From: Styela clava
Taxonomy: Eukaryota > Chordata > Ascidiacea > Stolidobranchia > Styelidae
Direction of reading: 5' to 3'
Assembly (NCBI RefSeq): GCF_964204865.1
Contig: NC_135252.1
Span: forward strand, 18,435,383-18,499,382
Length of the DNA: 64,000 nucleotides
Both the position numbers and the translations under genes were made by a program. The notes under the pieces are model-generated. The model was not told the origin of the DNA and ran no database searches. It saw nothing but the letters and a program-made list of their open reading frames with translations. Positions 25,847-64,000 of this stretch are shown here, in pieces. Every line of letters begins with the position of its first letter. Within the stretch, counting starts at the first letter, position 1.

Positions 25847-28800
25847 CTAGGGTGGGCAAAATGGAATTTTTTTTTTAATCGAATAATTTGAATATTTTTT
25901 TGTATACATAACAGGGATCCAGAACTTCGGAGGTCGATACTCCAGTTGGAAATTAATAGAAACATTAAAAAGTCGGCAATATAGCGTTTTTTAATGGGTA
26001 ATTTTATCATAATTGCTGATTGTCGTTGTCACCGCAATCGTTTTGGCGGCGATATCCTAAAGTTGGTATTCTATATTTCCGCCCTTTCTCGTTTTTGCAA
26101 GAATAAGCGGTCGCCGAATATCAAAATTTCATATTTCTAGTATACCCTTGCGTTCACATCAGCGACAGCTGTTGAATACATTTAAGGACTAATTTTAGAA
26201 CCAAATTAATTCTATTCTGAGTTTTATCCTCTGCCTTGGATTCAATCTTCCTTATCACCGCTTGTAAATTAACCGTGCATGTTTAAAGTGAACGGTAACC
26301 GAGATGCAGATATTTATTATAATTAGGCTTACCATACGTCCCGGTTTAGCCGGGACAGTCCCGGATTTGACATGCTGTCCCGGCGTCCCGACCGGTTGAC
26401 TCAAATGTCCCGGTTTGTCAGCACGGTTTTCATAGGTAAAAAATTCAAATTCATTATTATTACAAATTTTTTTTTTAACGGTGACAGCCCATTTACCACT
26501 GTTTTGCGACACACTTTGCTAGTTCAGAGAGAGAAATCGCTCTATTGTTATGTCACAATTAGTATATGTTTTAATGCGTTTTCTGGCGTTAACTGCAATG
26601 TCGTTAAGTTGTCGAAATGCCAAAAAGAAAGTACAAGTTTTCTGATGAGTTGAAGAAAGATTTTCCTTATTTGAAGCAAACTAAAGGAGGAAAGGTACAC
26701 TGTACGCATTGCAGATCTGTTTTTCTATTAGTCAGGGCGGACGTTCAGATGTCAACGATCATATCCAAAGCAGGAAGCACAAAACATTGAGGCATCGACT
26801 CGACTGACCAATTTTGCCATAACAAATTCGGATGATTCTGTGTCGTTGGCAGCCAACATTTACCTATCACACTGCTATTCATGACCAAAGTTTTGACTGC
26901 ACCTCTAAATTAATTTCAAATTTTTTTGAGGCTAAATTTGCATTAACTTGTAAATATACACAGTTAGAATTTCTGATGTCCGCTGTCTGATAAGCGGATT
27001 CGCTGATTTTGCACGTTTAGCCAGAAATAAATGAGAGTTGGTGCATTGCTCCGCTGTTCTCCTCTGAATTTAATGATGATTTACTTCAAGCTCGAATGGC
27101 AACAAAACGCAGAAAAGTTGAAGCTAAGTGCAAAGGGTTCAATAGCGCTGAAAATATTCAAATGGAATTTTTTGAGATGCAATGAGGAAATAAATCTATA
27201 TTCTATTCGAGAGATGTATCACTGCATGATTTTTAATATAAAAAGTATCATCCGTTCAGTTTCAACTTTCTAAAAATATGTGCGGCCCGCCAATGACTCG
27301 AAACCATTAATTTGGGCCCTCTGGCGACAAAAGTTTGCCGACCCTTGCCGTAGATGTTGCAAATATTCTGTCAGAGGTGAAGTTAAATTTGCAGGGAAAA
27401 AATTTGTATTTAAAAAGAATGTTTGCGATTTTTAAAAGAAATGTCTATCGTATATAGAGCTGCACGATGAAGCCTACAATGCTGCCAGGCCACACATATG
27501 GACAAATTTGAAGAGTGAAATAAACTGGACTGAAGTGTTTGGTCTGCAAAATTGATGAATGATATGATTGGTTAGCTGATCAGGTTTTGAATAGCGATGC
27601 ACTTTTCGACGAATACTGATAAAGAGATATTTATCTGAGCATGGTTCAAATGCAATTTGACTTACTTTGCCGGTTGAAATTAAGTAGACAGAGATGTTTA
27701 ACGTTTTTTCTAACAGAAATATTAGCATTTCGAATTTGCAGCAAATTGGTTGATTTTGTTTTTCGGAACATCTGTTAAAAGGATTTTTTTCCATTGTTAA
27801 AAAATTTTGGTCCGAAAGCAGGTGCAGAATGCCAGAAGAAAATATAAAACCACTCCGTAACCTGCAAATTTAATGGTGATGTCTCTTGTTATCAGTGTTA
27901 TGACAAAATCAAAACAAGAATTTTTGAGAAAGGTTCCATCTGCGGACAAATACTTTTGGTCTCAATGAATAATACAAACTAATTTTTTGTGTTTTTTCTA
28001 ATTCAATGATCAGTAGAGATTTACAGCCGTATATACCCGCAATGGCATGGTAGACGTTCCAATATTATCAAGACTGGCAATCGACCGAATGTTTGCCAAA
28101 TCGCACCGTCCCGGTTTTTTGTTTCAGATTTATGGTAAGCCTAATTATAATGATATTTGAGATTCTCATGCTTTTCTATGGTGTCCGTGTTATTTTAGTA
28201 TTAGATAGATAAACCTAGCAAATTTACGAATGCGTGAATCCTGCATGTTGATTTAAAATAGCGATTAAATAAATTGGCAATAAAGGCATTTCTAGGTCTT
28301 TGTGCTTAATAGAGGGTCAGACTCTAATTATACCTAATTCCTTCAAGTTTTATCGTTTTTTTTTTTCAACATAACAACACCCCGATGGTTATTATAGCTA
28401 AAATACTTACTGAGTAATGCTCAATTTTCTTTACGGAATTTGCAAATTCAGCACTTCGCTTAATGATTTCGATTATGTCATACCTTGAGGCTTAATTATT
28501 ACTGCCCAAATGCTTCAAAATTTAACAATTGTAATCATTTTCGATGATAATAGACGCAACAATTCGTGAACGAGTCAGTGCTTTAAAGGGAGTAGGACAT
28601 GACATTTCTTATCCGGCTACAACTTAATGAGTGTTTTCCATACAAGTAACTCATACCAGCTTTTGGAAAAACTTTTGGTCATTTTAAAATCCATGCTATT
28701 TACATAACTAGAGTGTTTTAACGACCTAAAATCGCCTTTTTCACAATGAAACGCCTAAAAGTCATTTTAACATTTAATTTTAAGCAAGTTTATGTTCGGT

Positions 28801-36047: not shown

Positions 36048-36275
36048 CGCGTTTTATAGAATCTTCGTCTCCACCAATCAACGCCCGATCCTGCTTTTTC
36101 TGATGACTTTTACCACGCGCGTTTTTTTTAATTTTCGGTTCTACCAATCAGCGCTCGTTCCTACTTTCTCTGGTGGCTAAAACCACGTCTTTTTACTTAA
36201 ATCTTCGGTTTTACCCATCAACGCTCGTGTCTACTTATTCTGATGACTTTTACACCGCGCGTTTTTTTGAATCCT
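36048..36275. repeat. 70 bp tandem repeat, just over three units
   Basis: Units start at about 36048, 36118, 36188 and a partial at 36258. Each contains TTCGGTTCTACCAATCA-like and CTTTTTCTGATGACTTTTAC-like blocks ending CGCGCGTTTTTT. It abuts the left border of the duplicated segment A. Confidence 0.8.
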
Positions 36276-37212
36276 CGCTCGCGATTATGACATTCGTTGA
36301 AATTGCTGATTTTTTCAGCGATGATGATTGATCTGTTGCGCAGAACAGTTAGTGCATGGCCGATACGAATATTAACAGGAATTTGTCACTATAATTTAAT
36401 ATTTTTCAACGTAACTCACCGTAGCGCCTACTTACAATAAAATAAAAGTATTTTTGCTCTGAAATACTACAATCTGCGTACATATAATATATTGTATACT
36501 GCTCGATTACAATTGATTCGCATTTTACCGATCTTAGTAATTTGTTAAATTTGAGCCGTTCGCGGTTATTTTCAAGATATCACCGTTAGCAAAATGCCCA
36601 TGTCGACAATAAAATTTTACAATATCACATTGATTAGTTTTGATCAATTGATCTTGGGATCCGGCGGTAATCCAATAATGAATAACGGAATGGATCAACT
36701 TCAGATAACTACGGTGTAGTTTCCGATCGAAAATTTGCGCATTTAATCCTGGGATTGTATTGGTCTGGTCCCAGACGATCGCATAAGAACGAGTTTTTCA
36801 CACTTCACGCACAATTCAGGACGATAGAAAACGGGCGATATCGCCCACTTTGGAAAACGATGGTATAGAAATAGATAATTGCAGTGTTTTCCAACCTATG
36901 AATCGCGACCCACAACTAGGTCGTCTGAAAATCTTGTTTTCGCTTGTTTTTACAACTACTACGGATTTATATCTCAGAAAATTGTACTATTTATAATAAC
37001 TATAGTAGGCTATATCTGGGGAGTATCACAGCGTACAATCTTAGCGGTTAACCATAAGTAAAGCTACGCTAAGATTTCAAAATTCTTGGAGTATACTCGT
37101 AGGTCGCGAGGTTTCACCAAATTTATTTTCGAAAGAATTTGGGTTTCTTGAAAAAATGTTAGGAAATACATTAACATGTACCACATACTGCATCTATTTG
37201 GTTGCTCTAACC

Positions 37213-37388
37213 CAGGGGTCGGTAAGCTACGGCCCGCGGGCCGGATCTAGCCCGCGGAGTTATATAATCCGGCCCGCGAATCTATATTCGAGAGATGTCT
37301 CGCTGCATGATTTTCATTTTAAAAAGTATCATTAGTTCGGTTTTCAATTTTCTAAAAAAATGTGTGGCCCGACAATGACTTGCAACCA
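37213..37388. mobile_element. Truncated CAGGGGTCGG hAT-type element
   Basis: It has the left end CAGGGGTCGGTAAGCTACGG with the GCCCGCGGGCCGGAT palindrome, then the ATGTCTCGCTGCATGATTTT interior, but the right end is lost. The corresponding copy in segment B (60389-60697) is complete to both ends. Confidence 0.7.
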
Positions 37389-38272
37389 GAAATTACATCA
37401 CCTATCCAGAAAATACATCACCTATATATAGGCTTACCATAAATCTGAAACAAAAAACCGGGACGGTGCGATTTGGCAAACATTCGGTCGATTGCAAGTT
37501 TTGTAAAATTGAAAAGTCTACCATGTCATTAAGGGTATATACGGCTGTAAATCTCTACTGATCATTGAATTAGGAAAAACACAAAAAAATAGTTTGTATT
37601 ATTTATTTAGACCAAAAGTATTGTCCGCAGATGGAACACTTCTCAAAAATTCATGTTCTGATTTTTTCATAAAACTGATAACAAGAGACATCACCATTAA
37701 ATTTGCAGGTCACGAGTGCTTTTATATATTCTTCTGGCATTCTGAACCTGCTTTCGGATCAAAAATTTTTAACAATGGAGAAAATCCGTTCAACAGATGC
37801 CGATGTTCCGGCAAACAAAATCTACGAGTTTCTGCAAATTCGAAATGCTAATATTTCTGTTAGAAAAAACGTTAAACATCTCTGTCCACTTAATTTCAAC
37901 CGGCAAAGTAAGCCAACTTGCATTTGAACCATGCTCAGATAAATATCTCTTCATCGGTATTTGTCGAAAAGTGCATAATCTGACTAGCCAACCAAACATA
38001 TATATCATTTATCAATTTTGAAGACCAAACACTTCAGTCCAGTTTATTTCACCCGTCAAATTTGTTTATATGTTTGGCCTGACAGCATTGTAGGCTTCAT
38101 CATGCAGCTACGATAGACATTTCTCGTAAAAAGCGCAAACATTCTTTTTAAATAGAGTTACGTCGATTTCGTCAGAGCGTTCCAAGGATTTCAGAAGTAC
38201 AAGTGATTGCGACGGAATTAACAGACTTTACCCGTTTTCCTTCAAATTTAGCTTCACTTCTGACATCTACGG

Positions 38273-38727
38273 CAGGGATCGGCAACCTTTTGTCGATCGC
38301 GGGCCAAAATTGAGGGTTGCGAGTCTTTGGCGGGTCGCACATATTTTCAAAAGCTGAAACCGAACGGATGATACTTTTTATAATAAAAATCAAGCAGTAA
38401 TACATCTCTCGAATAGAATATAGATTTATTTCTTCATTGCATCTCAAAAAATTCCATTTGAATATTTTCAGGGCCATTGAACCATTTGCACTTAACATCA
38501 ACTTTTTTGCGTTTTGTTGCCATTTGTCTAATTATAATTAAATTATAGGCACATTAAACGAGTAATTGTGAATTATATACTTGTAAGGTTATAATATAAT
38601 TTAGTTAAACAAAATATAATCGTCAAAACGGCTGTTTTGTTACTATAATTCAGTGAAGCGTCACGAGCCGGATTATAATACTCTGCGGGCCGGATCCGGC
38701 CCGGGGGCCGTAGGTTGCCGACCCCTG
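38273..38727. mobile_element. Nested CAGGGGTCGG hAT-type element
   Basis: Left end CAGGGATCGGCAACCTTTT, right end CGTAGGTTGCCGACCCCTG, exact 8 bp duplication ATCTACGG at 38265-38272 and 38728-38735. Its interior, on the minus strand, starts with ATGGCAACAAAACGCAAAAA, the beginning of a transposase-like frame also seen at 60441. It interrupts the transposase of the host element. Confidence 0.9.
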
Positions 38728-38739
38728 ATCTACGGCATT

Positions 38740-39540
38740 ACTATTATCTTTTTCCAAAATTAAAATAATTTTGCTGAGGTAGGTGAGCTGGCAAAGGACA
38801 AATTTCAAGTGAAGTTTGTACGTTGGAACATTTAAGCATAAGAGTAGGACATCCTTCTTGAGAATTTGAATAACTTATCAAGCTTTCAAACATTTCCGTA
38901 ATCCTTTGCAAAGCAGGTAATAAAGGGAGAAACCGAGTGTTGCCATGCTGTAATAACCGTTGATATTCAATATCAACAAAATCGCAGAATGGTTTCTGCT
39001 CTGTTACTCGGACAGTGTGAATGTAAAAATAATCATACATTCTGACAACAACACAAACAGGCAAAGTATCTACGGCATGTTGGAAAGGGCATCGCAGTGC
39101 AGTGTTGAACTACATGAGCCACACAATCTAAACCGGTTATGATTCTTTTAGTTTTAACAAAAAGCATTATTTGTTTTTCGTCTTTTTACGCCTCCAAAGT
39201 TGGTGTTGCAGTTATCCGCACAGAATCCAACAACTTTTCCGAGAACAGGGAGCAAGTATTCAGTAAAAGTTTTGGCGGTTTCCCTGGGTAAAGATTTGAA
39301 TTCTAATAGTTTTATCTTCACACCAACATCAGGTAAAAATAACGAACCATAACTGAAACAAGCTTTAAATTTTTTCTGTTTGATGCATCGAAGGTTACTG
39401 ATACGAAACTGGTTTAAAGTAAATCATCATTAGGTTCAGAGGAGAACAGCGGAGCAATGCAATTAAAAATCACCGACTCTCATTTATTTCTGGCTAAACG
39501 TGCAAAATCAGCGAATCCGCTTATCAGACAGCGGACATCA
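38740..39540 (-). pseudogene. hAT transposase, broken RNase H-like core
   Basis: Read on the minus strand, the region gives KVVGFCADNCNTNFGG, a strong hAT catalytic-core motif, followed by GLDCVAHVVQHCTA. After frame changes it reads VTEQKPFCDFVDIEYQRLL, HGNTRFLPLLPALQRITEMF and SQEGCPTL, which match the family order (Q-R-L-L-x-H-x-x-T-R-W-like motif with Trp replaced by Phe). Several frameshifts and stops separate the pieces, so no active enzyme is made. A further C-terminal part lies beyond the nested element, at about 38010-37790. Confidence 0.85.
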
Positions 39541-40433
39541 GAAATTCTAACTGTGTATTTACAAGTTAACGCAAATTTAGGCTAAAGAAAAATTAAAATT
39601 AATTTAGAGGTGCAGTCAATACTTTGGCCATGAATAGCAGTGTGATAGTAAAACATATACCGATTGTGACATAACAATAGAGCAATTTCTCTCTCTCTGA
39701 ACTAGCGAAGTGTGTCGCAAAACAGTGGTAAATGGGCTGCCACCGTTAAAAAAATTGTAATAATAATGAATATGAATTTTTTACCCACGACAGTCGTGCT
39801 GACAAACCGGGACATTTGAGTCAACCGGCCGGGACGCCGGGACAGCTCGTCAAAACCGGGACGTATGGTAAGCCTACCTATATATCACAATAAAACACAT
39901 GGTTTTCAACGAGCAAAAGAGTGGCCACGTCGATGAGAAATAAAACTGTTTACATTCTAATTCATCAAGTGCCTCAAACTCAATACCGCCACTATTCTGA
40001 ACCGAATTGATTTTTTAATTCCAATTGTGGTGTAAATACGCTTGGGGGAATATTTTCTGCTACTCTGAGCTCTGATACACTGAGCTACAGGGCATATGAG
40101 TATTCACGTCCTGTACTCTGCTCACCCGAATAAAACTCTTCAATCCATGCATTAACAACTGACAGTAGGAACACTGGAAAATCCGATTGATGCCGGCGAT
40201 GTATTGGGTATTACCAAGTCACCCGTTTTCAGAAATATTACAGTTCAATATACGGCAAAGTAAAACCCTGCAAGTGAAGTATAAACAATTTATTGAAATT
40301 TTAAAACTATACGAAACTTTTCATTTTCTGATAAATTGTATATATATATATATAAAGTTAATTATATCAAATTTTGGGACTAGGTCAATGGCTCAAATGA
40401 ACAGGTTGTCCAATTTAATTTAGTGAGGTGATA

Positions 40434-40682
40434 ATATGTAAATCGTTATTTTGAGTTCGACATGCACGTAAGTAAATAAATGGAGCTTTAATTACGCATT
40501 AGAAATTGTAGAAACAGAAGGTGAAGCGGAAATGTTATGAAGGGAAACAATGACGCATGCTGGGTTATGCGGTTCAAATTTTGATTAATATCACATTTTC
40601 GGTTTGACGAGTTAGTTTAGTTTGGATTTGTTTATCAGTTATTCAGTAAAAAGCTCCAAGACTGTAGTTCAAAACAAGAAAC
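40434..40682 (+). promoter_or_regulatory. Conserved upstream block of FReD copy A
   Basis: The 250 bases before the start codon are shared with B (61344-61594) and, more diverged, with C (46150-46394). The best-conserved parts are TGACGCATGCTGGGTTATGC, ATTTTCGGTTTGACGAGTTA and GTAAGTAAATAAATGGAGC. Conservation in the diverged copy C beyond the surrounding sequence suggests a promoter with the transcription start just upstream of the ATG; this is inference. Confidence 0.6.
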
Positions 40683-43516
40683 ATGATGTGTCATTCTTTG
40701 TTCCTGTTGCTTATTGCGGGATCAAGTCTCGGTGAGAAAGTTTTAAAATATTTGACCCTACTTAGTGTAAATTAAAGACTAAAAATTTTTAAAATTACGT
40801 ATTTGTTTATTTCTCATAAAACAAATCCATAGTTAACATATAAAAGCTTTCACGATATCACACGAATTGAGAATGTCGCCAAATTAACGAACAACGCATG
40901 TCGATTGGAACATGTTTCGTCTAAATAACATAACCAAGTCCTAAGCTATGGCTTAGTCAAAATTAATAACTTCATAATGTTACTCTTATACACAGCAAAA
41001 ATATTGCCAAACTCAGAAGATACCTGTGATGGCATATCACACAATTTTTACTTGACGGTAAGTTAAATTATTTATGTATTATTGCAATTTTATAAATACC
41101 ATCACCAAAACGTGTGTAAATACTATTAACCTAGCAAAAATCATTCTTGCGCAGATAATATACACATTGTATAACAAATTTTCAGCAGCATTAAACCTCA
41201 AAATGTTATTTCTCGAATTTCATATGTCAATGTTGTGGGAATTCAAGGAAATGTTGCATTTGTTGTAAATAATTTGTAGTATAATATTCTTGCTCTAATT
41301 TTATACAATTGATTGTTTAGCATATTTTTTCTTACTTCTTAAAAAACCCTTCACAAAAATGTGAAGTAAAGTGTGTTTCATTCTGTTTGTTTCAGTTAAC
41401 CAGCGAACAAGGTAAGATGTGACTTTTATTACAATATTGATTGGTTTAACGGTCCCAGAATCTTTATTTGGATTCAATTTGAGAGAATCTTTGAATAAAT
41501 ATATATATCAATCTCATTAGTTTTACATGTTCAAAATCTTCGTACACCAACAGACACACTAAGTATTGGTAAGCTAAAGCAACTTAAATCTATACCAGAT
41601 TCAGAAATACATCAGAAGGTTTGTTAATTCAGATTTGCGAATGCAGTTGGAAGAAAAGCTTACATTATTGTTAATGAATAATTTTGACGGAGATCTTGTA
41701 ATAAACACTCAAATATTTGAAAATGTTGCACGCACCAACCTAAATCATACAACTACAGATAGAGATGATACCACCGACAATAATGTTGAATATTCTAGTT
41801 CCGCGTCTTCTAATGATGTCACAACTGATCCGTTTTATTCAAGGACAAATTTGATAACAGAGAAAACTGAATTGAGTACAAAGAAGGAAATTACGACAGG
41901 TTTTAATAATTTTTCTTCATATTTTCAACGTAAATGTAGATCAAGCTACACCAACAACTCGAATTGCAATGCATTATGTATACACAGTGTAGAAGGGAAC
42001 CAATAAAAATATTGCAATGACAAAAATTTGAAAAAAAAAACTCTTCAAATATGTATGAAATTATGGAAGTGTATGATCGCAAAACCCAACAAATTTGTAT
42101 TCTAGTCAAAATTATAATTATTACTCAATTCTTATGGTAGTAGCTTATACAATTGAGGTAGTTTAGTCATTTGGTAAGGTATTTAAACTATAATGTCCGT
42201 AATATAATACGAACGCGTCATCTATCGATTTCATTACATTCAATTATTGAACCTAATTGACCTCATTTCAGGCACTTACGAAATATACCGACTGGGAATG
42301 GCCGAGAAGTACCGACAAATTGATAACAACCGACAAAGATGATATTGGAGATGTGGTGACCACTGACACGGATTCAACTCTTCTTCAGTCTTCTACTTTA
42401 ACTACTCTCGTTGATAGGAATGAAGGAAGCTCACATTCAGGTATCGGTACTAGCAGAAGATTTCTGTCTTCCTCTTGATCATTATATTTACAACGTATAG
42501 TTAATATTATGTAATAATATTATGTTTTATATCAATATCAGATTTACCCGAGGATTGTACAAACATGCAAAAGAAAAACGCGAAAACTAAAAACGCTACT
42601 GGTGGAGTATTTAATATTTATCCTGAACCAAACGAAAGTTCCATTGAAGTTTATTGTGATCTCGTCACCGAATGAGGAGGATGGATTGTAAGCTTTGCAT
42701 TTTGAACAAAGCTAGTATAAGCTGATTAAAAATTATCCCTTGTATCAATTTTCAATATTCACTAATCACTCCACTCTCATGAGTGAAAATTTTATAAATC
42801 TGCACGGATACGTAAATTTGACAAAATTTTTGTAACATTTCGTTGTGAATCAATCATTGAATAATATAAGAACAACAGCAAACTTGATTTCAAAGGTGTT
42901 TCAACGACGAATGGATGGATCGGAAAATTTTTATAGAAATTATTCTGACTACGTGAAGGGGTTTGGAAAAGCCGATAGAGAAATGTGGCTTGGTAAGTTT
43001 ATTTACTTTTAATATTGTTGGAATATTTGCAATGTAACAATTTTGAATGAAGTTGCGATAAGAAAATGTCAAAAAAATTTAATATTGATCAAAATGTGCA
43101 ACTCGGTTGGTTTACTTGCCCAATTCTAAATCCAGAAGTCATAAAATTAAATATTTCCATATTAAATCTTTGAAATTGTATAAAATCATTCAAGTTAACA
43201 TAAAAACGAGAATATCGGTTGGAAACCGAAGACTTATCGATCGATAGTTAGGGGATCCCCCAAAACAGAAACTGCAGTTTCGATTCATCCGCTCTTGTAA
43301 CTTGCGCACTGCGCATCGCACACACACACTCGGCGGGTTTCAAAATTCTCTCGCTTTACAAAAATCTAGATCACTATATCAATAATTGATTGATAACTCG
43401 CTAATTATACGACATAATTCGCCCAAAATCAATAGGCTACTGGTCCGAGATAAGATGAATGCACATGCAAAATCTGGAGCAGATTCAATCTCGCTTTCGT
43501 GAGATATCGCGTGCAT

Positions 43517-43570
43517 CTAACAGACAGACATACATACAGACATACATACAGACAGACATACATACAGACA
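43517..43570. repeat. ACAG/ACAT microsatellite
   Basis: Alternating CAGACAGACATACATACAGA units in intron 8 of FReD copy A, inside a possible small element with ACTTATCGATC-type inverted ends (about 43230-43611). Confidence 0.7.
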
Positions 43571-44137
43571 AATACCTATCAATATACTTACCGATCTTAA
43601 GATCGATAAGTAATTAAGCACCAATACCATGTATAATGATACCTCATTTGCGCCAATATAAACTTCAGGTCTGGAAACGTTGAATCTGATTACGAATAAA
43701 TATGATTGTGAACTTCGTATAGATATGAAAGATTGGGAAAACAACACATCTTACGCCAAATATGGGTGAGTCGCGTGATAAAAAAATAAAAAGCCAATGA
43801 ATTACACATAGCTTATAAATGTGGGTTGGACTTTGAAAGGCCAATCTGTCACCCTATTTAGGAAAGTCGCCATTGACTTCAAGTTTTAGTGTTATTTGAG
43901 CACGCACTCGGGAAGAAATGCTAGAGCAATGGAAGTTGGCTATTATATAATTTCTTTATTAAACTTGGCATCTTGGAATTGTTGTGAATTCGGAATAGCT
44001 TTTTCTAATATTCAAAATATTTCATATTGATTGAATGAAACTACATAAGCTACAATAATGCGGATAAAAACACTCGAAATAAGATAGAAACGTACCAGAC
44101 TACTGTAATATTACTAGTACAAACAAAAAATAAATGG

Positions 44138-44247
44138 GACCTCCTGAAGTATGCGCACCAAGATGGCGCACAATCTGAACTCGGGTTGTGTACAAAGTTA
44201 GGTTTCAGGCTGTGCGACATCTTTGTGCGCATACTTCAGGAGTACCA
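44138..44247. mobile_element. Short palindromic repeat, family F2
   Basis: CTCCTGAAGTATGCGCACCA and GTGCGCATACTTCAGGAGTA are inverted ends, with a GTTAGGTTTCAGGCTGTGCG return arm inside. It lies in the last intron of FReD copy A and closely resembles 13098-13201. Confidence 0.75.
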
Positions 44248-44713
44248 AATAATGATATACGTTTGACTGCTGTTGATAAATAGTCAAGAAACGAATCTCA
44301 AAACCCCTCAGACATACTGTAGAGACGCAGTTGAAGGACAGAAACATGAATAACGCTCTAAATTTCTAGGGTGTTTAAAGTTGGAGATGAAACTAACAAA
44401 TATCAACTCACTGTGGGGGAATACAGTGGAAATGCGGGAGATTCAATGCGAAATCATTCTACAATGAACTTCACAACAAAAGATTACGACAACGATATCT
44501 GGCAAAGAAATTGCGCTCAACGATTCAGAGGCGGTTGGTGGTACAATAAATGCCATCAATCTAACCCAAACGGCATTTACTTATCAGGAGAATCTGAGTT
44601 TGGCGTTGGAATCAGCTGGTTTACCTGGAAAACGCACAGATACTCCCTCAAATTTATTGAGCTGAAACTCAGGAAAAAATCTAAAACTATATGATCTCGC
44701 GCGAACCTTGCAA

Positions 44714-45149: not shown

Positions 45150-45570
45150 GTTGGCTCGAGGGTAGGAGAGTTGAGGTACATAGACAGTGGGTCGAAGATA
45201 GGAAGGTAAGAGGGATCGGAACGCGGGCCGGCGATAGAAAGGTTGAGGGAGATATGATGGTGGCACGTAGATAAGTGGTGAGTCCAGGATAGAAGGGTGG
45301 GAAAGATAGGGCAGGGCAGTGGGTCGAGGATAGGAAGGTGAGAGAGATAGGACAGCGAACCGGGGATAGAAAGTTTGTATGAGATAGGGCAGTGGGTCGA
45401 GGATAGGAAAGTATGAATAGATAGGTGGCTAGTCGAGGATAGGATAGTGAGAGAGGTAGTGCAGTGGGTCGAGGATAGAAAGGTTGGGGAGCTGGGGCAA
45501 TGTGTGGAGGACAAGAATGTTGAGGGAAATGGGACAGCGGGTGTAGGATAGAAAGGTTGAAGTGGATAGG
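45150..45570. repeat. GA-rich minisatellite, about 36 bp units
   Basis: Imperfect repeats of GTGGGTCGAGGATAGGAAGG and GAGAGATAGGGCAG. The minus strand is open in more than one frame and would encode Pro/Ser/Thr-rich FLSSTHCP repeats, an effect of the repeat composition and not evidence of a protein. Confidence 0.8.
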
Positions 45571-46149
45571 CAGGGCCATTTTGTATCTTGCTCTTCTGTG
45601 TTAAAGGTTGCACATCCCTGATTTAGCGTATATATAAAAGACTAAAAATTTTGAAAGTCTGCATATAAACTCAACTAAGGGCAAGCCGCAGTAAACAGTC
45701 TGGCGGGCCGTGGGTTGGGCAACCAATATATAAAGCTACAGCTCCTATGACCTATACCGAGCCGTAGTTGTTGCCGAATATAGGAGATTGAAAACATCGT
45801 CCTGAAAACTTTGGTACCGGGATGCATGTATACGATCAATAACTTCTTACAAATTTGAAAATCTATTTATCCATAGGAAAACTAAAACACATTGCATATG
45901 AGACGTTGATATAAACGTAAAACATATTTGTTATAAATTTCAATGATCGAGTTGAGTTGTCGGTGTTTTTCCACAGCAACAATGGAATAATGAATAGAAT
46001 AATAAATAAATAGAATAAAAAATCTTTGGCGCTTACATATTATACTGAGCTCAACAATGCCATGAACCTCCCAAAAATATAGAAAACTACTTCGATGTAA
46101 AATGGAAGTAAATTAAAAAGCTCTCAAATTTATTTTGATTATCGGGAAA

Positions 46150-46394
46150 TAATTTCTAAAATACTATTTTGAGTACAACATGTACGTTAATAAATACATC
46201 GACAGTTCGAAAGTTGTATTACCAAAAGATAAAGAGGAAATGTTATGACGTGAAATGATGACGCATGATGGGTTATGCGGTTCAAATATTAGTTGACATT
46301 ATCATTTTCGGTTTGACGAGTTAGTATGGTTTGATTTTTTCTATCTGTAAATCCGCAACAAAACTTCAAGCTTATAATTCAAAAAAGAAGAAAC
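46150..46394 (+). promoter_or_regulatory. Conserved upstream block of FReD copy C
   Basis: It shares GATGACGCATGATGGGTTAT, ATCATTTTCGGTTTGACGAG and CGTTAATAAATAC-type blocks with copies A and B in the same order and spacing. Confidence 0.55.
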
Positions 46395-48240
46395 ATGATA
46401 TATCAATATATATCAATTTGTTCGTGTTACTTATTGCGTGTTCAAGTCACGGTAAGATGGTTTTAAAATATTTGACCTACTTGATGTAAATTAAATACTA
46501 AAATTTAATAAAAGTATGTATTTGTTTATCTGTCATAAAACAACTCAATTGTTTACACATAAAAGCTTTCACGTTATTACCCGAATTGAGTAATTTAAAA
46601 GGCCGGTTAGAACATTTGTTGTCTAGATAACGTAAATTAAACTACGGTTTAGACCAAATTGACAAACTTCATAATGTTATTCCTGTAAACAGCAAAAATA
46701 TCGACAAACTCAGAAGATCAGTATGATGGCATATCATACAATTTTGACTTGACGGTAAGTTGAATTACTTATGTTTTATTGTAGTTTTATGAGTACGATC
46801 ACCGAAAATGCGTTAATACTATTAACTTAGCATAGATGATTATTGCACAGATTGTATACACATTGAATAACAAATTTTCAGTAGCAATAAACCGCAAAAT
46901 GTTATTTTTTGAATTTCTTACGTCGGTGTCAGCATTTAATATATATATAGGCTACATGTAGAATACGATCATTTGTGAAGTCGTAACACCTTGGGTGTTC
47001 GAGGAAATGTTGCATCTGTTGTTCATAATTTGGTAGTTTATTAACCTTGCTTTATTTTAATACAATTGATTGTTGAGCATATGTTTTGTTACTTCTCAAG
47101 TGACCCCTTTACAACACAGATAAAGTAATTTACGTTTTACTCTGTTTGTTTCAGTTCTCAAGTGAACAAGGTAAGATGTGTTTTTTATACTTATATTGAT
47201 TTGTTTAACGGCCCCAGAATCGGTTTTTATTTTGATTCAATTTGAAAGGATTTTTGAATAAGTATATATCTTAATCTCATTATGAGTAAACTAAAGCAGC
47301 TTAATTTATTCTACACCCGATTCAAGTTTTTTTTTTTAATTCAGATTTGCGAATGCAGTTGGAGGAAAAGCTTACATCAATTTTAATGAACATTTTTGAT
47401 GGAGATCTTGTAATAAACACTCAAATATTTGAAAATGTCGAACGCTCCAACCTAATTCCAACAACAACAGATAGAGATGATACCACCGACAATAATGCTG
47501 TATATTCTAGTTCCCCGTCTCCTAATGATGTCATAACTAATCCGCTCTATTCAGCGACAAATGGAATACACGAGAAAGCTGCATTGAGTACAAGGACGGA
47601 AATTACGACAGGTTCAATCAATTTTTTTTTGACGCTTATAAGCATACGTGTAGATCAGGCAATATCAAATACTCAAATTACATTAATATATATACACAGT
47701 GTAGAAGAGAAACAATTATAATTTTGCAACTCTGAAATTTGCGAATATGAAAATTTGTTAAATATATCAAGAGTCTAACAAATTTCTATGCTATACCAAA
47801 TTTTAATTGTTAATTCAATATAGGTAAATCTAAGCAATTGATAAAGTATTTGAACTATAATGTCTGTAATATAATAAGAACACGTCATCTATCGATTCGA
47901 TTACCAATCTATTTGATCCTATTTCAAGCACTAACGAAATATACTTGGGGATGGCCGCTTAGTACTGACCAATTGATAACAACCGACAAAGATGATATTG
48001 GACATAGAGTGACCACTGACACGGATTCAACTCTTATTCAGTCTTTCCCTTTATCAACCTTCGTTGATAGGACTAGAGGAAGCTCACTTTCAGGTATCTG
48101 TAGGCTACCAGCAAAACATTTCTGCCTTCCTCTTGATCACTAAAATAAATATCATGTTTATATCAATACCAGAATTACCCGAGGATTGCACAAACATGCA
48201 CAAGAAAAACGCAAAAATTAAAAACGATACCATTCCAAGC
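46395..48240 (+). pseudogene. FReD gene copy C, 5' half only
   Basis: Exon equivalents 46395-46451, 46693-46754, 47155-47170, 47345-47611, 47929-48093 and the start of exon 7 at about 48174. The 15-base exon 4 of A/B is missing, but as a phase 1-1 exon its loss keeps the frame. The stalk exon is the same length (267 bases) as in A and clearly homologous (TTTDRDDTTDNN). Exon 7 reads LPEDCTNMHKKNAKIKND, then homology stops and the frame meets TGA at about 48247. In exon 1 the ATG is out of frame with the recognisable signal-peptide frame (INLFVLLIACSSHG) because of an insertion in the TATATATC run. As it stands there is no fibrinogen domain. It could supply the 5' exons for the downstream FReD (D). 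Confidence 0.75.
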
Positions 48241-50292: not shown

Positions 50293-51957
50293 CAGGGGTG
50301 GCCAACCTTTCACATACCATGCGCCACGTTTTAAACATAATGTTTCAGATGCGCCGTAAATCTCATGTATTCCCACGCCTAATGTCCGCTTCTTGTGTCC
50401 ACTCATTTAGAGAATTACGGAATCACTGAATTAAACACTGAATGAATAAATTACAATGACAGCCGCATATATATAGTTAACTCAACGAAAATTCTCGTAT
50501 CCACGCAAAAATTCGAGCAATTTACGATAAACAGATTACGATTGATTACGAAACAGGGAACCATTGTGACGCCATGCTTCAAGTAAAAACTACAGCCTTC
50601 CTGAAAGTAGGAGAAAAACGCATTCTGTCTTAGTTATGAGCATTACGCAATAAAGCTGTTTTTAACAACGAAGAGAAAAAGGTACGATTAAGAAGTAAAG
50701 TTAGGCGTAATATTGTGACAACAGGCCTTTAGTATCAATATCTACTCTACTCTACTCTACCCTCGATTCTAATTGGCCTTTGCTAATCAGCTGTTTGGCC
50801 TAGCGTTGCGTGATTTCACTCCAGGCTTCTTCGAGATTAGTACCTGCGTCACAGCAAGCGATTTTACGCTTTGCTTTTGTTGACAACGGTCATTTGAAGT
50901 TTGGATGAAAAAGGCGGTATTTAGGGGTCATTTTCAGCATGTTGTGGGTTGATTTATATTAAATTTTTTAGACTTGGGCAATTCAATTGGTTGTTCAATG
51001 GTTATTGGGAGATATTTGGGGAGTCTGGGCAATGGAAAATCCATGTCTCAAGCTGATAAATGACGATTTTCTATTTTTCCAGAAGTTCTGAACTTTTTAC
51101 TTCAGTAGGAAAAAAATAGTAAATTTTACTAATTTTTGCTAAAAGTCTAGAATGAATGTCATAAAGTCCGTCCAAAAGCTAACGTCGATAATCGCCTGTT
51201 GTTTATAATTCCAACAAGCCGTAAGTGGGCGACGTGGAGTAAGGAGAATAGATTTCAGGTACAATCAAAAGTCACCATGTAAATTGCAAAAAAACGGCTT
51301 GGGGTGGAGAAGCCAAGTGCTATTAACAATTTTGGCATGAAAAGGGTTAAAGATGCAATGCGCCACCTCTAATCATGCAATGCGCCACGTTTGGCGCATG
51401 CGCCATAGGTAGGCTTACCATATCTCTGAAGCCAAAAAACCGGGACGGCGCGGATTGGACAAGTCAAACTTGGTTCGATTCTGGGGGTTAGTAATAGTTT
51501 AAACGCTTTCCTACCATTGTGGGTAGATTGCAGGCATCAAAATTAGCTGTAAATCTTATTACGAAATCCTCGGTTTGACAAATAAAAATAAACTCTCTTT
51601 CTATTGGTCTTCGCTTCAAATAATGGGAATTGTTCTCATTCTTAAACTCATCAGAAAACTTGCACTTTGTTTCCGGCATTTTGATGATTCAACGACATTA
51701 CAGTTGGGTGTTAAATTAACACATGGTTCATACTTCATGTCATGAAGTGAGACGCAAATCATTGGTAAATCGGCTGCCTCCATTAAAAATAATTTTTTTT
51801 GTAATATTATCGAATAGAAAAACTATTATGACTGTCATACTGCAAAACCGGGTCATTTAAGTCTATCGCCGGGACGGCAGAAAAACATGCTAAAACTGGG
51901 ACTGTCCCGGCTAAACCGGGACGTATGGTAAGCCTAGCCATAGGTTGGCCACCCCTG
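50293..51957. mobile_element. hAT-type element with GCGCCA repeats, 1.67 kb
   Basis: Ends CAGGGGTGGCCAACCT and AGGTTGGCCACCCCTG with an exact 8 bp duplication GTTTAAAG (50285-50292, 51958-51965). Both subterminal regions carry ATGCGCCACGTTT repeats. It contains no transposase of its own, but does contain a nested element at 51410. It lies in a D gene intron. Confidence 0.9.
51410..51936 (-). mobile_element. hAT element, TAGGCTTACC family, 527 bp copy
   Basis: Ends TAGGCTTACCATAT and GTATGGTAAGCCTA; exact 8 bp duplication GCCATAGG at 51402-51409 and 51937-51944. A minus-strand remnant at 51679-51488 begins MPETKCKFSDEFKNE, the counterpart of MPKRKYKFSDELKKD in the 26324 copy, and then degenerates. 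It is inserted in the subterminal region of the 50293 element. Confidence 0.9.
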
Positions 51958-59300: not shown

Positions 59301-60388
59301 CAGAACAGAACTCTGAGTTTTATCAGTCCTGTAATCGAAAATCGGTGACAGATTATTTTGCCTCAAATTATTCAGATTAGAAGGTAGGAGTCATAAGTAT
59401 TAGGCTAGAATATGTTAACAACCAGAGCGAGAGTCGTGAATTAGAGTATCGTATAGATTAGTGGTTCCCAAACTTTTAAGGCATCGTCGCCCCCTTACAG
59501 TAATTTACATTATATTAAACTATATTTTCAGTAAATTATATTCTGTATTTGAAATCGGATACGAAAATTCCGATCAAAACAGTCCTCGCTCGCGATAATG
59601 ACAATCGTTAAAATTGCTGATTTTTTCAGCGATGATGATTTGTCTGTTGTGCAGAACAGTCAGTTCATTGCCGATACGAATATTAACAAGAATTTGTCAT
59701 TTTAAAATAATAATTTCAATGTAAATGACCGTTGGGCCTACTTACAATAAAATGAAAGTATTTTTGCTCTGAAATACTGCAAGCTGCGTACATAAAATGT
59801 ATTGTATACTGCTCGATTAGAATTATTCGCATTTTCCGATCTTGATAATTTGTTAAATTTAAGCCGCTCGCGGTTATTATCAAGATATCACCGTTAGCAA
59901 AATGCCAATGTCGACAATAAAATTTTACAACACAACATTGATTAGTTTTGATCAATTTATCACAATATGGAAAGAAGTCGTGTGGAATCCGGCGGTAATT
60001 CAATAATGGATAATGGAATGGATCAACTTCAGATAACTGCGGTGTAGTTTCCGATCGAAAATTCCGAAATTTTGCAATTTAATTTCAATTTCGTCTGCAA
60101 AATCTTGTTTTCGCTTGTTTTTACAACTATTAAGGGATTTATATCTCAGTAAATTGTACTATTTATAATAACTATAGTAGGGTATATCTGGGGAGAATCA
60201 CAGCGTGCAATCTTAGCGGTTAACTATGAGTAAAGCTACGCTACGATTTCAAAAATTTTTGAGTATACTCGTAGGTCGCGAGGTTTCACCAAATTTATTT
60301 TCGAAAGAATTTGGGTTGCTTGAAAAAACGTTAGGAACCTCATTAACATGACTGTACCAAATACTGCATCTATTTGGTTACTCTAACC

Positions 60389-60697
60389 CAGGGGTCGGCA
60401 ACCTACAGCCCGCGGGCCGGATTTTACTATAATTAGATAAATGGCAACAAAACGCAGAAAAGTTGATGCTAAGTGCAAAGGGTTCAATGGCGCCGAGAAC
60501 ATTCAAATGGAATTTTTTGAGATGCAATGCAATGAGGAAATAAATCTATATTCTATTCTAGAGATTTCTCGCTGCATGATTTTCATTATAAAAAGTATCA
60601 TCCGTTCGGTTTTCAATTTTCTTAAAAAATGTGCGCCCCGCCAATGACTGCAACCCTTCATTTTGGCCCGCAAGTGACAAAAGGTTGCCGACCCCTG
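60389..60697 (+). mobile_element. CAGGGGTCGG hAT-type element, 309 bp
   Basis: Ends CAGGGGTCGGCAACCTACAG and AAAAGGTTGCCGACCCCTG. The interior encodes MATKRRKVDAKCKGFN, which I recognise as the start of hAT transposases of the GTF2IRD2/FAM200-like group, then degenerates. It is an internally deleted non-autonomous copy; the open frame is not a host gene. Confidence 0.8.
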
Positions 60698-61343
60698 CCT
60701 AACCTTTCATACACAATATTCTTAGTTTCTATCCGATGCATAATCCAGAAAATACATCACCTATATATCACAATAAAACACATGGTTTTCAACGAGCAAA
60801 AGAGTGGCCACGTCGATGAGAAATAAAACTTTTACATTCTAATTCATCAAGTGCCTCAAACTCAATACCGCCACTATTCTGAACCGAATTGATTTTTTAA
60901 TTCCAATTGTGGTATAAATACGCTTGAGTGAATATTTCCCGCTACGACTCCGAGTTACATGGTATAAGTGCGTATTCACGTCTTGTACTTTGCTCACCCG
61001 AATAAAACTCTTCAATCCATTCACTAACAACTGACTGTAGGAACACTGGAAAGTCAATGGCTCAAATGAACAGATTGTTAAATTTATTGGACACGTAGTG
61101 GACATAACGATCGTTTTGTTGTTATGTTGTTCTCAGTCTTGTTCTTGTTGTTGTGTGACACGTTTTGAAAAAATCGCCTTTCTCTTTGATTACTGGACCA
61201 ATTGCTCTTAAATTTCCAGTGGGTAAAGATGGAATTTTTCTCCAAAGGGCTATTACTTTTTTTTTTGCTATGACGTCATCAAAATTATGTGGCTCTACGT
61301 GTCCATATATTTGAGCATAGCTCTCTTGTTTTAGATGAGGTGA

Positions 61344-61594
61344 TATTATCTAAATCGTTATTTTGAGTTCGACATGTACGTAAGTAAATAAATGGAGCTT
61401 TAATTACGCATTAGAAATTGTAGAAACAGAAGGTGAAGCGGAAATGTTATGAAGTGAAACAATGACGCATGCTGGGTTATGCGGTTCAAATTTTGATTAA
61501 TATCACATTTTCGGTTTGACGAGTTAGTTTAGTTTGGATTTGTTTATCAGTTATTCAGTAAAAAGCTACAAGACTGTAGTTCAAAACAAGAAAC
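61344..61594 (+). promoter_or_regulatory. Conserved upstream block of FReD copy B
   Basis: Almost the same as 40434-40682, including TGACGCATGCTGGGTTATGC and TTTTCGGTTTGACGAGTTAG, directly upstream of the ATG. Confidence 0.6.
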
Positions 61595-63901
61595 ATGATG
61601 TGTAATTCTTTGTTCCTGTTGCTTATTGCGGGATCAAGTCTCGGTGAGAAAGTTTTAAAATAAATGACCCTACTTAGTGTAAATTAAAGACTAAAAATTA
61701 TTAAAATTATGTATTTGTTTATTTCTCATAAAACAAATTCATTGTTAACATATAAAAGCTTTCACGATATCACACGAATAGAGAATGTCGCCAAATTAAC
61801 GAACAACGCATGCCGATTGGAACATGTTTCGTCTAAATAACATAACCTAGTCCTAAGCTATGGCTTAGTCAAAATTAATAAACTTCATAATGTTACTCCT
61901 ATACACAGCAAAAATATCGCCAAACTCAGAAGATACCTGTGATGACATATCACACAATTTTGACTTGACGGTAAGTTAAATTATTTATGTATTATTGCAA
62001 TTTTATAAATACAATCACCAAAACGTGTGTAAATACTATTAACCTAGCAAAAATCATTCTTGCGCAGATAATATACACATTGAATAACAAATTATCAGCG
62101 GCATTAAACCTCAAAATGTTATTTCTCGAATTTCATATGTCGATGTATGAATTCAAGGAAATGTTGCATTTGTTGTAAATAATTTGTAGTATACTATTCT
62201 TGCTCTAATTTTATACAATTGATTGTTTAGCATATTTTTTCTTACTTCTTAAAAAACCCTTCACAAAAATGTGAAATAAAGTGTGTTTCATTCTGTTTGT
62301 TTCAGTTAACCAGCGAACAAGGTAAGATGTGACTTTTATTACAATATTGATTGGTTTAACGGTCCCAGAATCTTTATTTGGATTCAATTTGAGAGAATCT
62401 TTGAATAAATATATATATCAATCTCATTAGTTTTACATGTTCAAAATCTTCGTACACCAACAGACACACTAAGTATTGGTAAGCTAAAGCAACTTAAATC
62501 TATACCAGATTCAGAAATACATCAGAAGGTTTGTTAATTCAGATTTGCGAATGCAGTTGGAAGAAAAGCTTACATTATTGTTAATGAATAATTTTGACGG
62601 AGATCTTGTAATAAACACTCAAATATTTGAAAATGTTGCACGCACCAACCTAAATCATACAACTACAGATAGAGATGATACCACCGACAATAATGTTGAA
62701 TATTCTAGTTCCGCGTCTTCTAATGATGTCACAACTGATCCGTTTTATTCAAGGACAAATTTGATAACAGAGAAAACTGAATTGAGTACAAAGAAGGAAA
62801 TTACGACAGGTTTTAATAATTTTTCTTCATATTTTCAACGTAAATGTAGATCAAGCTACACCAACAACTCGAATTGCAATGCATTATGTATACACAGTGT
62901 AGAAGGGAACCAATAAAAATATTGCAATGACAAAAATTTGAAAAAAAAACTCTTCAAATATGTATGAAATTATGGAAGTGTATTATCGCAAAACCTAACA
63001 AATTTGTATTCTAGTCAAAATTATAATTATTACTCAATTCTTATGGTAGTAGCTTATACAATTGAGGTAGTTTAGTCATTTGGTAAGGTATTTAAACTAT
63101 AATGTCCGTAATATAATACGAACGCGTCATCTATCGATTTCATTACATTCAATTATTAAACCTAATTGACCTCATTTCAAGCACTTACGAAATATACCGA
63201 CTGGGAATGGCCGAGAAGTACCGACAAATTGATAACAACCGACAAAGATGATATTGGAGATGTGGTGACCACTGACACGGATTTAACTCTTCTTCAGTCT
63301 TCCACTTTAACTACTCTCGTTGATAGGAATGAAGGAAGCTCACATTCAGGTATCGGTACTAGCAGAAGATTTCTGTCTTCCTCTTGATCATTATATTTAC
63401 AACGTATAGTTAATATTATGTAATAATATTATGTTTTATATCAATATCAGATTTACCCGAGGATTGTACAAACATGCAAAAGAAAAACGCGAAAACTAAA
63501 AACGCTACTGGTGGAGTATTTAATATTTATCCTGAACCAAACGAAAGTTCCATTGAAGTTTATTGTGATCTCGTCATCGACTGAGGAGGATGGATTGTAA
63601 GCTTCGCATTTTGAACAAAGCTAGTATAAGCTGATTAAAAATTATCCCTTGTATCAATTTTCAATATTCACTAATCACTCCACTCTCATGAGTGAAAATT
63701 TTATAAATCTGCACGGATACGTAAATTAGGCAAAATTTTTGTAACATTTCGTTGTGAATCAATCATTAAATAATATAAGAACAACAGCAAACTTGATTTC
63801 AAAGGTGTTTCAACGACGAATGGATGGATCGGAAAATTTTTATAGAAATTATTCTGACTACGTGAATGGGTTTGGAAAAGCTGATAGAGAAATGTGGCTT
63901 G
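61595..63901 (+). pseudogene. Secreted fibrinogen-related protein gene, copy B (3' cut by window; in-frame TGA)
   Basis: Exons 61595-61643, 61909-61970, 62306-62321, 62464-62478, 62543-62809, 63182-63349, 63451-63596 and 63805-63901 correspond one to one with copy A, with the same lengths and phases. The signal peptide is MMCNSLFLLLIAGSSLG. Unlike A, the exon 6 acceptor is CAAG, which keeps the frame (GALTKYTDWEWP). The TGA at 63582-63584 is in the same place as in A, so the reading frame ends at about residue 236, before the GGW motif; the following exon ([20 protein letters not shown]) is still clean. The two remaining FReD exons lie outside the window. B might make only a secreted stalk, be a pseudogene, or be rescued by readthrough. 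Confidence 0.82.
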
Positions 63902-64000
63902 GTAAGTTTAATTACTTTCATTATTGTTGGAATATTTGCAATGTAACAATTTTGAATGAAGTTGTGATAAGAAAATGTCAAAAAAATTTAATGTTGATCA

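Follow-up and report, generated by a model that had tools for sequence, protein, structure and literature searches.

The hAT transposons and derived MITEs of Drosophila, among them Mar and the BuT2-derived elements, generate 8-bp target-site duplications (TSDs), end in short terminal inverted repeats (TIRs) and include internally broken copies amplified in trans, according to the portions of the two reports available to us (PMC3517528, PMC3942097). In the same available portions, Buster elements prefer nnnTAnnn targets (PMC3517528), and the target preference of the Tip group (Tip100/BuT2) is not investigated (PMC3942097); hobo, of the Ac group, is given as preferring nTnnnnAn in the excerpts at hand. 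The hAT superfamily is further characterized by a C-terminal hAT dimerisation domain. The available part of a report on the Sp185/333 immune genes of the sea urchin describes similar genes in clusters, accompanied by repeats and by large segmental duplications (PMC5103432). The DNA analyzed here, a window of 64 kb (G000:C3:18435383-18499382; GC content 34%) from an assembly of 376.6 Mb, resembles the Drosophila systems in its 8-bp TSDs, short TIRs and internally broken copies that would have been amplified in trans, and the sea urchin cluster in its gene organization; the dimerisation domain is found in a relative of the element within this genome. Unlike Buster (nnnTAnnn) and Ac (nTnnnnAn) elements, the family described below uses nnTATAnn-like targets, and one and the same nested MITE is found in most of its long copies that were aligned. 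In contrast to Sp185/333, as far as the accessible text of that report goes, the genes are predicted fibrinogen-domain genes, and a transposon marks one upstream region while a recombinant copy is without it.

Two copies of the predicted gene lie on the plus strand of the window (other features are unstranded unless a strand is given). Copy A (40668..44694; exon ends approximate) comprises a signal-peptide-like stretch (40668-40772), a linker (41578-42006) and fibrinogen_C exons to 44694, with a Fibrinogen_C match at 44362-44694 (E 7.5e-32), and copy B (61580..64000) runs past the window end. The upstream block of copy A (36272..40183) matches positions 59583-61055 of B, with indels. Within this block, about 0.8 kb upstream of the signal-peptide-like stretch, lies a non-autonomous hAT element of 2448 bp (37429..39876), with perfect 13-bp TIRs (TAGGCTTACCATA and TATGGTAAGCCTA) and transposase remnants on the minus strand, between two exact copies of CCTATATA (37421..37428 and 39877..39884). 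Copy A thus reads AAAATACATCA, CCTATATA, the element from TAGGCTTACCATA to TATGGTAAGCCTA, CCTATATA and TCACAATAAAACACATGG, and copy B reads AAAATACATCA-CCTATATA-TCACAATAAAACACATGG, with a single target (60760..60767) and no extra base. A first-pass annotation had described this configuration, at positions that proved exact for the element and both CCTATATA copies of A, and had proposed aligning 37300-40200 with 60600-61100; the alignment returned one exact target in B and no excision footprint, that is, no remnants of both TSDs. Excision from copy B with an ordinary footprint is therefore ruled out. Since an exact 8-bp duplication adjoins perfect 13-bp ends and 171 aligned bases are identical across the joined flanks, chance is excluded, and the filled/empty site is confirmed as real.

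To the left of the target, the unbroken match between A and B spans only 17 bp (37404-37420). Farther left, copy A has deleted the end of a neighbouring MITE together with 44 bp kept by B (60699-60742), and carries a small filler. At this deletion with filler (37380-37425), which adjoins the insertion site, AGAAATTACATCACCT resembles the neighbouring AGAAAATACATCACCT, as after break repair. To the right, homology extends to 40183 in A and 61055 in B, is interrupted by unlike stretches, and resumes at 40419 and 61330, respectively.

A third copy, C, is located outside the 64-kb window, 22.8 kb beyond B (G000:C3:18517758-18527315, window-equivalent 82376-91933; loci L053 and L054). It is also empty and matches B at 100% along 361 bp. 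A genome search with this 361-bp B flank yielded 14 matches, the 3 strong ones being B itself, C and A, to which 297 bp of the query align at 89%, and the remaining 11 reaching 71-74% over 96-136 query bases. Given that B and C are both empty, the insertion is younger than the separation of the A and B upstream blocks; B and C form one lineage in this upstream part, so that the empty state has been seen once independently.

The relationships among the three copies change along their length. In a three-way alignment, C differs from B upstream at 9 of 2703 columns, and from 41394 to 44560 it does not differ from A at all (0/3167), an identity that ends near 45.0 kb, where it drops to 92-99.5%. 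Copy C is thus a recombinant of a B-type upstream and an A-type body, or is partly converted, its change from B-type to A-type falling between about 41.2 and 42.0 kb in A coordinates. Between A and B, mismatches in the gene body amount to 28/962 and 54/2758, versus 88 of 1145 well-aligned columns in the upstream block, the latter being a low estimate because the columns were chosen by hand and badly aligned stretches left out. Within this block, A and B share an identical patch of 171 aligned bases (37404..40032, counted without the element and passing over one 1-base gap). A run of 171 identical columns was reached in 3 of 20,000 shuffles, and outside it the divergence is 88/974, about 9%. 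The patch shows that A and B exchanged sequence exactly at the insertion site.

Consequently, the "A/B duplication" was no single event, and the insertion site lies in a block much older than the similarity of the gene bodies implies. The first-pass annotation had placed the insertion after the A/B duplication (or else had B descend from an uninserted haplotype), which holds for the upstream block but not for a duplication treated as a single event, nor for small gene-body divergence used as a clock. Its statement that A and B have closely similar introns likewise applies to the gene body and fails for the block bearing the site. As gene bodies have been exchanged between copies, copy C combining a B-type upstream with an A-type body, gene-body similarity between A and B was rejected as a basis for dating the insertion. 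In exchanging arrays each block has its own age, so that the date of an insertion has to come from its own divergence and from the block in which it resides.

The interior of the element is a composite. On the minus strand, one transposase remnant with broken frames (38744..39423) consists of pieces at 39154-39423 and 38744-39109, and the C-terminal part (37606..37981, 2 TGA codons; G000:C3:18472988-18473363) lies across a nested MITE from it, transposase pieces matching on both sides. The nested MITE (38273..38727) has CAGGGGTCGGCAACC-type ends and is flanked by the TSD ATCTACGG (38265..38272 and 38728-38735). It is present in 18 of the 19 other aligned copies, in one only in part, and at the same position (381-454 of 455 columns in 17 copies and 254 in win26). 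The remaining copy, L028, is without the MITE (23 scattered letters only), and near positions 1450-1470 of this locus ATCTAAGCCTTCTACGG represents two damaged target copies, as expected of excision, with 9 extra bases left. A relative of the family, L082, has an unvisited site at this position with one ATCTACGG (near 1290). L028 and L082 together give a yardstick for how an excision looks, and copy B resembles the unvisited kind, although the yardstick is one case and comes from the nested family, not from the hAT family itself. The ends of the nested MITE resemble CAG(G/A)GGTAGGC of Mar, as given in the available part of PMC3517528, and the MITE is Buster-like; its target ATCTACGG fits Buster, being the single distinct target found for the nested family and hence affording no statistical control for target preference. 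Because the nested MITE is common to 18 of the 19 other aligned copies, the transposase was broken before the insertion in copy A. The first-pass annotation had noted the broken transposase, which stands, with the refinement that the breakage predates the insertion; the element of copy A would thus have moved in trans, with transposase supplied from elsewhere.

The same family is represented twice more in the window, by a copy of 1820 bp on the minus strand (26324..28143; TSD ATTATAAT) and a short copy of 527 bp (51410..51936; TSD GCCATAGG). The 13-bp TIRs are perfect in all three two-ended window copies. Genome-wide, the family's end sequence TAGGCTTACC was counted 579 + 610 times, versus 169 + 153 times for the reversed pattern, and the family likely counts several hundred copies, in size classes of about 0.45-0.8, 1.8, 2.0 and 2.4-2.8 kb. 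An exact 8-bp TSD was found in 27 of 41 copies examined, namely in 16 of 28 genome copies, for which the end pair with the fewest TSD mismatches was taken, 8 of 10 facing pairs, picked from the first 100 places of the end-sequence search, and all 3 window copies; L038, with CCTTTAAT on both sides, stands outside these 27.

In 22 of the 27 exact TSDs, TA occupies positions 3-4 or 5-6 (16.5% of window 8-mers). The arrangement typical of Buster, TA at 4-5, was found once (1/27; 8.7% of window 8-mers), and that of Ac, T at position 2 with A at position 7, in 6 of 27 (10.8% of window 8-mers), at most a weak tendency. Assignment of the family to Buster or Ac by target site was thus rejected in favour of an nnTATAnn-like preference (27 copies). 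A literature search with a single wording found no paper on a TATA-type target preference of hAT elements. We give somewhat less than even chances to a reading in which the family is a hAT lineage with its own nnTATAnn rule, distinct from Ac and Buster, and array recombination pairs filled and empty upstreams with the same body. The TATA-centred preference is a candidate for a modest novelty and a data point for sorting hAT groups.

Membership in the hAT superfamily rests on the 8-bp TSDs, the short TIRs and a match to PF05699, the C-terminal hAT dimerisation domain, just above the cut-off in one relative (L080, 21.9 bits versus 21.4); L038 (19.4 bits) and L082 (13.7 bits) fell below it, and a Pfam scan of three pieces of the copy A element gave no hAT match. 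A piece conserved between relatives (41% over 115 aa) may represent an RNase-H-like DDE domain, with no relevant Pfam or PDB match; searches of PDB returned nothing relevant, and NCBIfam nothing at all. Across 30 loci (L009-L038), the longest stop-to-stop frames were 421 aa (L034), 268 aa (L038) and 253 aa (L031), and none was a full-length transposase frame of the family, which would probably exceed about 500 aa. L034 was rejected as a family member, being assigned by Pfam to another hAT family, and L038 had no significant BLASTP match to the hAT protein of L034.

A protein search for the transposase, in which 143 of 467 candidates were scored, gave 144 matches. Its five longest stop-free open frames (431-559 aa, 36-43% identical) were taken for other families; the one of these that was inspected, L083, is without a family-type TIR in the 2 kb fetched. 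The L083 piece (G000:C8:8471300-8473300) holds a 482-aa open frame with 41% identity over 115 aa to a family relative, in which Pfam recognised no hAT domain. At C6:2714328 (L082) the protein search indicated 402 aa at 70-82% identity; reading this place from stop to stop, however, gave no frame longer than 152 aa, and the closer relatives L038, L080, L081 and L082 are all broken. The search for further copies with a full-length transposase, suggested by the first-pass annotation, thus came back without an intact family source among the candidates scored.

The age of the insertion was estimated from the element itself. The copies aligned with the copy A element were the second window copy and eighteen others from the genome whose ends were usable; among the aligned copies, L012 and L023 are without an exact TSD, and for L012 one end had to be guessed. 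Of the 30 loci L009-L038, 11 were excluded because they were incomplete or too different. The nearest copy is 97.9% alike. Private changes in the copy A element number 19 in 2358 aligned sites, that is, 0.8% on one lineage or about 1.6% pairwise equivalent, a value that rests on a 10-copy subfamily comparison and may be too low. The other members of the subfamily have 0.38-1.35% private changes, and the copy A element is of middling age among them. Elsewhere in the genome, the pairs L011/L013 and L022/L024 are 99.0-99.2% alike and have different target duplications. A second exact empty site was found for L019, whose joined flanks with one TSD occur uninterrupted (220/220 bases, 100%) in at least 4 places (40 of 70 candidates scored), the empty form recurring because L019 sits in another young repeat; the same search with the L022 flanks found its own filled site and no empty paralogue. 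The suggestion that the family may have been active recently is thus borne out by the few private changes, the 99.2% sister copies and the L019 empty site, and recent mobility is supported independently of the gene array.

Taken with the upstream divergence, these data make it highly probable that a non-autonomous hAT element inserted here once by cut-and-paste, with the upstream split coming before the insertion in A and the B/C duplication after it. It is improbable that the common ancestor of A and B already carried the element and that B lost it through excision, followed by repair from an empty homologue that left no footprint. Such precise repair would give the same appearance, and the exchange evident from the 171 identical bases could have assisted a loss from B, but B carries the target exactly once, the only excision observed here, that in L028, left 9 extra bases, and a divergence of 0.8% on the lineage of the element is far smaller than the pairwise A/B distance of about 9% upstream, which argues that the element is younger than the split. 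An equally small probability attaches to A, B and C being in part a product of assembly, with unmerged haplotypes making filled and empty sites alleles of one locus. The differences of 0/3167 between A and C and 9/2703 between B and C are low enough for alleles or false duplication; however, A and B are about 9% apart upstream, B and C are about 2% apart in the gene body, where C is the same as A (A/B is 54/2758), per-kb identity between the 18.7-kb blocks of B and C is uneven (91.7-99.8%), and a single 25.6-Mb contig contains all three copies, the 174 kb read being free of N.

For the favoured reading, a single insertion in A after the upstream split, the course of events may be outlined as follows. 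The upstream block of the fibrinogen-domain gene was duplicated long ago into A-type and B-type, as the alignment shows (divergence about 9% pairwise). The element, already disabled by the nested Buster-like MITE, then inserted into A only, duplicating CCTATATA, presumably with transposase supplied in trans, and copy B, judging from its exact single target, was presumably never hit. Later steps would have been the duplication that separated B from C (upstream 0.33% pairwise) and the exchange of gene bodies between A and C (0/3167), leaving copy C as a later tandem copy with a B upstream, an A gene body and an inherited empty site; placing the insertion before these two steps assumes like rates and that B and C were not reset by later exchange. 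This is ordinary hAT biology, well resolved, and the insertion serves as a clean, if ordinary, time stamp. Where a site is filled in one duplicate and empty in another, relative dates can be had without a calibrated clock, and the A/C pair, with bodies identical over 3.2 kb and upstreams filled versus empty, offers a natural test of the effect of the insertion on expression.

Several further features of the array were recorded. In the 174 kb read, an 18.7-kb block (45448-64115) recurs at 68255-86909 with 98.5% identity, uneven at 91.7-99.8% per kb. In B and C, a single stop follows the signal-like part of the signal-peptide-like stretch and may fall past the splice site. A stretch of 412 bp (43196-43607) is present in A and C and not in B (junction near 64114); it shows no clear target duplication and has a 96.8% inverted copy at window-equivalent 113993-114400. 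Degenerate direct repeats occupy 45185-45559, near the end of the A/C identity. A second gene type or partial copy, about 75-79% similar, alternates with the A-type genes (46110-48230 and window-equivalent 68983, 89927 and 98802).
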